Shown one piece after another: positions 54,657 through 57,377 of a DNA stretch of 64,000 nucleotides. The number at the start of each line of letters is the position of its first letter. Positions within the stretch are counted from its first letter, which is position 1. The notes below the pieces were generated by a model. The model saw nothing but the letters and a program-made list of their open reading frames with translations, had not been told where the DNA came from and ran no database searches. Source of the DNA: Caenorhabditis elegans (Eukaryota > Nematoda > Chromadorea > Rhabditida > Rhabditidae); assembly GCF_000002985.6 (NCBI RefSeq), contig NC_003282.8, positions 17,422,001 to 17,486,000 on the forward strand, in the 5' to 3' direction. Position numbers and translations under genes: made by a program.

Positions 54657-57372
54657 ATGTCAAGATGGAAGGTCGTTATTTTGTGCCTATTAAGTTTTAT
54701 GTTTGAAATCGGTATGTTTATATTTGGTTGATTTACAATCAGCGTTTTTTTTCTGTTTGAATGAAAAATGTGAGAAATTCATGAAAGAAAATCTCTAGTT
54801 TATTAAAAAAACTAGATCATAAAAAAATTTAAAAACAGGTTTCACTTGGACTATTCTTTAAAAAAAACGTTCTAAGGCTAAATTGCTTTGGATTAAATTT
54901 AAAAAAAAACCCACACTGACTAAAAATTGCATTCCCTAATGAGACTTCATAATAAGTTTTCGGTTTTAATGGCTCCAAAAAATCATAGATAAATTTTTGA
55001 GAAGTCTTTTAATGATATTCGGTTTTAGGTGTGGGGAGGTAGTTTTGAGTTTCCCAAACAATGAATAAAGTGAGAATGATTTACCGTTCAGTATTAATAT
55101 TCTTTTAGGTCATGCTTCTTTTCAATGCAACCCAAAAACCTATGACGGCGCGTTTCTCAACATTGTTTGTGTTTGCAACGCAACGTTTTGCGATGAAATT
55201 GAGCCAATAGGAGAGATAGCTGAAGGGAAGGCAATTGTTTATAGATCAAGTTTGGACGGCGATAGATTGAAACGCATGAGTATGAAAATGAAAGAGAAAT
55301 TGAGAAAAAATGAATCAGGTAAGAATACTTATCTAACACATTTCCGAGGTGCAAATCATCCTCCAATTATTAAATGTTTTATAGTTAATGTGACAATTAC
55401 AATAGATGCCAGTGAAAGATTTCAAAATATTTTTGGTTTTGGAGGAGCATTTACTGATTCTGCCGGCGATCAATTTGTTTCCTTATCGGAGACACTTCAA
55501 AATTATATCGTTGATTCATATTTTGGAAAAAATGGATTAGAATATAATATAGGAAGAGTTCCAATAGCCAGTTGTGATTTTTCTACTCATGAATATAGCT
55601 ATGATGACGTTCATGATGATTTTGAATTAAAACATTTTGCATTACCTGATGAAGATTTAAAACTAAAGGTAATTTTAATAAACGGCAAAACTTCAAAAAA
55701 AAGACTGAAACTTTCAGATTCCATTTATCAAGAAAGCAATTGAAAAAACTGAAGGAAACATTCAATTATTTGCCAGTCCATGGTCAGCTCCTGGATGGAT
55801 GAAAGTTACTGGACGCATGAGGGGCGGAGGAGCTATGAGAAATGATAAGCGTGTTTATCAAGCGTACGCTGATTATTTTTTTAAGTAAGTTTTTGTGTTT
55901 ATTCGAAAACACTGAATTATTATTTTTAAAAGATTTTTCGAAGCCTATTCATCTCATGCAATTACCTTTTGGGGACTAACAATTCAAAATGAGCCATCAA
56001 CAGGAGCTGACATGGCATGGAGATGGCAGACTATGAATTATACAGCAGAAACGATGCGAGATTTTCTAAAAAAATATCTTGGCCCAAAACTGAAAGAAAA
56101 TAAACTAACGGAAACTTTGAAAGTTATGGTTTTGGATGATGGAAGAGGATTACTCCCTGGATGGGCTGACACTATTTTCAATGACCCGGAAGCAACCAAA
56201 TATGCAGATGGTGTAGCAGTTCACTGGTATGGTAACTTGTATTCTCCTGCTGTTCTTCTTGATATTACTCAAAGGCATCATCCAACCAAATTTATTTTTG
56301 GAACCGAGGTAAGATTGAATACCATGAATATGGTTATTCATGAAAGTATTGATGCAAAAAAAAATGACTGTACATTCTTAGTTTTCAAGTTTTCTGCAGG
56401 CATGCGCGGGTTACGCTATTCATCATGGCCCATTAATGGGTGACTGGTTTACGGCAGAAAATTATGCATCTGATATTATCAGTGACTTAAACCACCACTT
56501 TACTGGATGGACCGATTGGAACTTATGTCTGGACGACATGGGCGGCCCGACTTGGGTTGATAACTTTGTTGATTCTCCAATTATTGTAAATCGTACAGGG
56601 CAAGAGTTCTACAAACAACCAATGTTCTATGCAATGGGACATTTTAGGTATGTTAAGATGTTATGCTGCCATGATTTGATGATTACAAATTATTATAATC
56701 AAACTTAATACAAAAAGTGTCTAATCCAAATGCCCGTTGCACTTGAACCTTGGTTTTTGTAAAACTCATCAGCACCTAGCTTTGCTTGTTATCAGCGCAT
56801 ATTTAGTTCAAACTCAGACATCCTGGAGAGTATATTTCAGCCAGCTTGTTTCAGGCATGTGCTGGCTACTTTGGACATCATGGTCCAATAATGGGAGACT
56901 GGTTCCGCGCAGAAAGTTATGCAGATGATATCATCACTGATCTTAATCATCACGTTACGGGATGGACTGACTGGAATCTTTGCCTTGATGAAACTGGTGG
57001 GCCAAATTGGGCCTACAATGTTGTAGATTCCCCAATCATTGTCAACCGAACTGCTCAAGAGTTTTACAAACAACCAATGTTCTATGCATTGGGCCACTTT
57101 AGGTTTATTAACCTTATGATTCTGAAAACATACTTTTTTTTAGTAAATTCCTTCCACGTGGATCTACTCGTGTGTTCACAAAGATCGAGGGAAACCTGGC
57201 TGTCTCAGCTACAAGTGTTGTGATTGAAGGTGGAAGACGAGCTACAGTTATTTTATCAAAAGCGTCCAACTCATTATTGACACGTATAGTTGACAGTTCA
57301 ACAGGATTCTCTATTGTGCTGAATTTGCCCCCAAGATCCATTCATACAGTGATTTGGAAGAAAAGAAAATAA
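54657..57372 (+). CDS. gba-3: Lysosomal glucosylceramidase (glucocerebrosidase) GBA-3
   Basis: Exons 54657-54711, 55109-55318, 55385-55668, 55718-55884, 55933-56308, then either 56400-56647 or 56855-57102, then 57144-57372, give 522 aa. Glycoside hydrolase family 30: signal peptide (MSRWKVVILCLLSFMFEI), N-terminal CNPKT...VCVCNATFCD, FQNIFGFGGAFTDSAGD, YNIGRVPIASCDFS, ASPWSAPGWMK, acid/base Glu in TIQNEPSTG, VAVHWYG, nucleophile Glu in FIFGTEAC, GWTDWNLCLD, FYKQPMFYA(M/L)GHF and the C-terminal beta domain. It cleaves glucosylceramide to ceramide and glucose in lysosomes. The nucleophile Glu is the last codon before the duplicated exon, so the alternative exons supply the residues right after it. 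AATAAA at 57378. Symbol from memory of the locus next to elo-2. Confidence 0.9.
56400..56647 (+). other. gba-3 alternative exon, version A
   Basis: 248 bp, TTCTGCAG acceptor and GTATG donor, phase 0 in and phase 2 out. Encodes ACAGYAIHHGPLMGDWF through GHF. It reads GGPTW where version B and human GBA read GGPNW. Confidence 0.85.
56855..57102 (+). other. gba-3 alternative exon, version B
   Basis: 248 bp, GTTTCAG acceptor and GTTTA donor, same phases as version A. Encodes ACAGYFGHHGPIMGDWF through GHF with about 80% identity to A. Including both exons, or neither, shifts the frame, so one must be chosen. Confidence 0.85.
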
Positions 57373-57377
57373 TCTAC

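Follow-up and report, generated by a model that had tools for sequence, protein, structure and literature searches.

Glucocerebrosidase (GCase) is the enzyme deficient in human Gaucher disease. In a putative Caenorhabditis elegans gene for this enzyme, two exons of exactly the same length lie side by side, which raises the question of whether they are alternatives to each other, what their exchange would change in the protein, and how one of them could be chosen. The gene lies at positions 54657-57373 of the window, i.e., the whole stretch of 64,000 nucleotides analyzed here (contig NC_003282.8, 17,422,001 to 17,486,000, forward strand), and we take it to be gba-3 (F11E6.1). Matches to PF02055 (GH30) span the gene (contig 17477432-17479103, window 55432-57103) and identify a GH30 catalytic domain, and the genome holds three further GBA-like loci besides this one. 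Both observations agree with the assignment, given the gba-1 to gba-4 family described in a recent report (PMC11823175). The in-silico gene model has eight exons, including both members of the pair, here called A and B (Table 1). Residues are numbered as in human GCase after alignment with 1ogs_A, in which residue 342 is the second residue of the alternative exon.

Table 1 Features of the putative gba-3 locus (window positions)
Feature	Positions	Strand	Basis
Coding exon 1 with start codon and likely signal peptide	54657..54711	+	In-silico model, open 522-aa frame
Coding exon 2	55109..55318	+	In-silico model
Coding exon 3	55385..55668	+	In-silico model; GH30 match
Coding exon 4	55718..55884	+	In-silico model; GH30 match
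Coding exon 5, last codon GAG = nucleophile Glu (human E340)	55933..56308	+	Model; 1ogs_A alignment
Intron preceding exon A, 91 nt	56309..56399	+	Model; fold z -1.56
Alternative exon A, 248 nt, entered in phase 0 and left in phase 2	56400..56647	+	
Candidate exonic selector S_A, complementary to E	56604..56644	+	Predicted helix to 56645, adjoining donor A
A-B intron, 207 nt	56648..56854	+	Model
Element E in the A-B intron, candidate docking site with complementarity to both exons	56728..56774	+	
Alternative exon B, 248 nt, entered in phase 0 and left in phase 2	56855..57102	+	
Candidate exonic selector S_B, complementary to E	57052..57094	+	
Intron following exon B, 41 nt	57103..57143	+	Model
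Last coding exon, contains stop codon	57144..57373	+	Model

The preliminary description of this DNA had proposed two 248-bp exons that start right behind the nucleophile Glu and cannot be used together or both omitted without breaking the frame. All of this was borne out: each exon is preceded by AG and followed by GT, is entered in phase 0 after ...FGTE and is left in phase 2. Splicing in silico with A alone or B alone gave 522 aa in either case, whereas joining both exons led to a stop early in B (458 aa) and omitting both placed TAA directly behind the nucleophile Glu (364 aa). Only single inclusion keeps the 522-aa frame, as expected of exclusive exons. The spliceosome would thus join exon 5 to either A or B and then to the last exon, and the two mRNAs would encode GCase isoforms with the same catalytic acid/base and nucleophile but with 16 of 82 residues different, some of them in the loops around the active-site entrance; mRNAs carrying both exons or neither would have early stops and should be removed by nonsense-mediated decay. 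Judging from frame and conservation, A and B are very probably both used, and in a mutually exclusive manner, and we consider it likely that the pair as a whole represents tandem-duplicated exclusive exons through which gba-3 makes two GCase isoforms. The pair has possibly been catalogued before: Kassiopeia predicted 389 exclusive exons in 138 C. elegans genes (PMC3923563), and a 2026 survey describes worm exclusive exons as frame-preserving throughout (PMC13247117). The article passages on gba-3/F11E6.1 covered here do not mention the pair.

The splice sites of both exons had been called good; AG and GT are intact, but the sites are uneven. Exon A has the acceptor ttttctgcag and the donor gtatgt, and exon B the acceptor cttgtttcag and the donor gtttat. 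An extra AG is located upstream of each acceptor. The one 18 nt before acceptor A (56382-56399) would, if used, add FSSFLQ in frame behind the nucleophile Glu; 14 nt before acceptor B (56841-56854), TATTTCAG looks comparable in quality to the true site, and its use would cause a frameshift and an early stop. Both exons open with GCATG (56400 and 56855), the core of the FOX-1/ASD-1 motif, at a point where it is fixed by Ala-Cys codons.

Exons A and B are identical at 187 of 248 nt and 66 of 82 aa. A search of the whole genome with the exon A protein returned six matches, namely A, B (80% identity) and four weaker ones in the three other GBA-like loci, so the likeness of A and B stems from tandem duplication and not from chance. 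The gba-1/gba-2-like genes have exon borders at the same points (behind the nucleophile Glu, and in phase 2 behind HF). Differences between A and B number 11, 10 and 40 at codon positions 1, 2 and 3, and 16 of 24 fourfold sites differ; dN was 0.109-0.125, and dS was 1.5 by LWL85, 2.0 by ML and saturated by NG86. At first and second positions 21 of 164 sites differ, whereas neutrality of one copy from the duplication onward predicts about 50 (P=7.5e-8); this comparison would miss a copy that fell out of use during approximately the final third of that time. By these substitution counts the duplication is old and protein-level constraint has been kept in both copies. Human GBA1 structures (PDB 1ogs and others) matched exon A over residues 351-423 (E 2.2e-24) and exon B over residues 342-423 (E 1.2e-26), and at the 16 differing sites the human residue is found in B six times and in A twice. 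The protein comparisons suggest that A is evolving somewhat faster than B and, for this reason, may be the minor form, B being by a slight margin the better conserved of the two.

A simpler reading of the pair would be that one exon works while the other is rarely or never spliced in, so that no second enzyme arises from it. Donor B (gtttat) and acceptor A (ctgcag) do look weaker by eye than their counterparts, and A stands slightly further than B from both human GBA1 and gba-4, as such a reading would have it. Yet the deficit of first- and second-position differences described above speaks against a copy out of use, and both exons are free of stops and indels, with their AG and GT intact. We therefore regard a single working exon as improbable and retain mutually exclusive use of both.

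What would the exchange change in the enzyme? In human GCase, loops 2 (345-349) and 3 (394-399) cap the active site, and the glucose site is lined by, among others, C342, S345, W381, N396, F397 and V398 (PMC3226326). The alternative exon carries both loops and all six of these positions. The proposed link of the swap to the N396 region did not hold, as N396 and W381 are both identical in A and B; C342 and V398 are likewise kept in both when aligned with the human enzyme. The difference between Thr in A and Asn in B and human is real, but it had been attached to the wrong site: it aligns with human N392, and N396, which we discarded as the varying residue, is present in both exons. Among the six glucose-site residues only 397 differs, being Phe in A, as in human and gba-4, and Val in B. 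The contrast between AGYAIHH and AGYFGHH was found as described and gives Ala-Ile in A and Phe-Gly in B at 347-348 of loop 2, where the alignment includes a one-residue gap of uncertain placement. From the alignment, positions 397 and 347/348 are better candidates than the N/T site for an effect on the enzyme.

The differences between A and B are concentrated in loops 2 and 3 (differing at 5 of the 10 loop sites but at 11 of the 72 remaining sites, P=0.021). The same concentration was found between gba-1 and gba-2, whose divergence is similar (5 of 11 loop sites against 11 of 70 others, P=0.036), and among 15 pairwise comparisons three gave P<0.05, the third being B with gba-2 (P=0.011). Loop clustering was accordingly rejected as a sign of A/B specialization; loop variability is a property of the family and by itself no argument for two activities. 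The change in substrate or pH preference first proposed is a conjecture, and a real enzymatic difference between the isoforms has a little less than an even chance.

According to the report on the family (PMC11823175), deletion of gba-3, alone among gba-1 to gba-4, abolishes GCase activity, and gba-3 is used to model Gaucher and Parkinson biology in worms. In the two gba-1/gba-2-like genes, which lie next to each other (C2:2178000-2186000), W381 is replaced by Arg, C342 by Ser and N396 by Asp or Gly (GWTERN, GGPSW). On account of these residues their products are probably not ordinary glucocerebrosidases, which fits the reported survival of activity after their deletion (PMC11823175). The gba-4-like gene (C4:5341500-5348500) has no introns at either border of the gba-3 alternative exon. 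W381, N396, F397 and the nucleophile are all retained in it, but according to the same report activity is unchanged when this gene is deleted (PMC11823175). If gba-3 does make two active-site versions, rescue or inhibitor work with one cDNA covers half of the gene, and the pair would constitute a natural experiment on how loop residues tune GCase.

How could one exon be chosen? The intron between A and B contains a stretch, named E, that is complementary to the 3' ends of both exons. The reverse complement of E aligned with S_A with 35 identities, 4 mismatches and 3 gaps, and with S_B with 36 identities, 6 mismatches and 2 gaps, corresponding to antisense scores of 43 and 44. Neither score was reached in 3000 dinucleotide shuffles of the intron (maxima 30 and 37) or in 5276 real 207-nt windows taken within the 64-kb window (maximum 29). 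Since A and B are homologous, the match of E to both of them does not amount to two independent facts.

Predicted duplexes were -43.6 kcal/mol with 39 pairs for E:A and -44.2 kcal/mol with 35 pairs for E:B. In the predicted fold of 56309-57143, E was paired with A (35 pairs); barring S_A from pairing cost 15.1 kcal/mol and shifted E to B (35 pairs), and barring E itself cost 24.0 kcal/mol. The ensemble gave 26.0 expected pairs of E with A and 8.0 with B, and the E:A pairing appeared in all six 3'-truncated transcripts that were folded. The same nucleotides of E are involved in both pairings, which are thus incompatible and would form competing structures. The predicted E:A helix stops two bases short of the exon end, beside donor A, and the predicted E:B helix loops out acceptor B together with most of exon B. 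No special masking of one splice site was seen in the predicted fold, the mean unpaired probabilities being 0.38 for donor A, 0.42 for donor B, 0.29 for acceptor A and 0.46 for acceptor B. The fold of the whole region had a z of -3.92 (20 shuffles), against -1.68 for a stretch of the same length in the same gene. The middle intron alone folded no better than its shuffles (z +0.74), and 90%, 93% and 41% of shuffles did as well as or better than the best intron-intron duplexes. With these values, and a z of -1.56 for the intron leading into exon A, neither local folding of the introns nor pairing between them was retained as the basis of the choice. A short perfect inverted repeat in the intron ahead of exon A (56323-56342, CATGAATA/TATTCATG) can form a hairpin.

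Complementarity of this strength was also sought in other parts of the genome. Among pairs of open frame and flank in 264 kb, 38 of 1776 (~2%) reached a score of 43, under a crude open-frame filter whose codon score was trained on 3895 codons; the counts were 157 of 5952 for unfiltered neighboring pairs, 32 of 1774 with another spacing and 7 of 517 for frames of at least 450 nt. Local inverted repeats are thus common in the C. elegans genome. The flanks of five distinct control loci had at least 185, at least 44, at least 280, 6 and 2 genomic matches (L022, L010, L021, L017 and L014, respectively), and the two matches of the L014 flank were itself and its own inverted partner. Four of these five flanks are therefore members of repeat families, and the fifth is an isolated local inverted repeat. 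A genome search for a second copy of E matched only E itself; the same search missed both exon stretches, so short diverged copies of E might escape it.

The sequence of E bears on its age and in some respects speaks for a function. Had E been neutral since the exon duplication, about half of its bases should mismatch, and we observed 4 of 39 and 6 of 42 (P 4.9e-8 and 4.3e-7). Of seven columns in which A and B differ, E agrees with A at two and with B at four, and has a gap at one. Synonymous differences between A and B affect 4 of 14 codons in the paired part and 29 of 46 elsewhere (one-sided P=0.025), and differences at all nucleotides 7 of 48 and 54 of 198, respectively (P=0.046). The synonymous depletion in the paired stretch is suggestive; it comes from few sites, and a later exon change or gene conversion could mimic it.

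Two other accounts of E and of the choice have to be weighed against a role for the pairing. E may have no function and be an inverted copy of one exon's end, produced by a local copying mistake later than the A/B duplication and decaying neutrally since; its match to both exons would then stem simply from their likeness. Its mismatches, taken as neutral, amount to 0.13-0.19 of the one-branch age of A and B, which a young copy would explain, and the lone local inverted repeat in one of five control flanks indicates that such events occur in this genome; furthermore, the exon pair taken for coq-2 does without such an element (best score 23). The mixed agreement of E with A and B argues weakly against this account, as E does not simply duplicate either exon in its present form, and so, weakly again, do the fewer synonymous differences in the paired stretch. 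We lean towards this account of E. Separately, exclusion could come from the reading frame and nonsense-mediated decay only, with protein splicing factors rather than RNA pairing making the choice. Every wrong product carries an early stop, and a precedent exists in that about half of the C. elegans exclusive clusters reportedly depend on decay for their fidelity (Kuroyanagi 2014). A scan of the exon-pair region for TGCATG and for CELF-, SUP-12- and EXC-7-like motifs gave no match, which counts slightly against such factors; on balance we give this explanation somewhat better than an even chance.

If E does have a function, it would pair with the end of A, placing a helix at donor A, or else with the end of exon B, in which case acceptor B would be looped out; either pairing would bias the choice. 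Such an action of E in exon choice is possible but rather unlikely. The full proposal, in which coding exon ends double as selectors and a central E switches lysosomal glucocerebrosidase between two active-site versions, is about as unlikely. Should the pairing be repressive, the order of transcription would favor E:A first, and B would be the predicted default. The full proposal, if true, would amount to a switch by competing RNA structures whose selectors are exonic and whose docker is central, with RNA pairing coupled to synonymous-site constraint, and nematodes would offer a short, editable case with selectors in coding sequence.

Human GBA1 has, to our knowledge, no alternative exon. It shares with gba-3 the nucleophile, W381 and N396 and differs in having N370 where both worm exons encode Asp, and the worm loop 2 is one residue shorter. 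Within C. elegans, exons 6a and 6e of coq-2 are mutually exclusive exons of the same length that change the core of an enzyme (PMC7434440). Like that pair, A and B of gba-3 are homologous, would be used one at a time and would exchange part of an enzyme core; the coq-2 exons have 134 nt and a substrate switch proven by experiment there (PMC7434440), whereas the gba-3 exons have 248 nt and are known here from sequence. In the coq-2 pair, which we assigned by its UbiA match and exon length (134 nt), no antisense element scored above 23, unlike E in gba-3, so an element of this kind is not general for C. elegans exclusive exons. Competing RNA structures of the docking-selector type have been described for Dscam exon 6, 14-3-3zeta, Mhc and MRP1 (PMC6071210; PMC10790352). 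They resemble E in that one element is complementary to a site at each alternative exon and only a single pairing can exist at once. They differ in the location of the parts: their docker is placed in the cluster's first or last intron and their selectors are intronic, whereas E sits between the exons and has coding sequence as its partners. Duplication of a stem arm has been proposed as a way to obtain two selectors per docker (PMC6071210), and the anatomy of gba-3 fits this idea, with the duplicated arm inside the exon.
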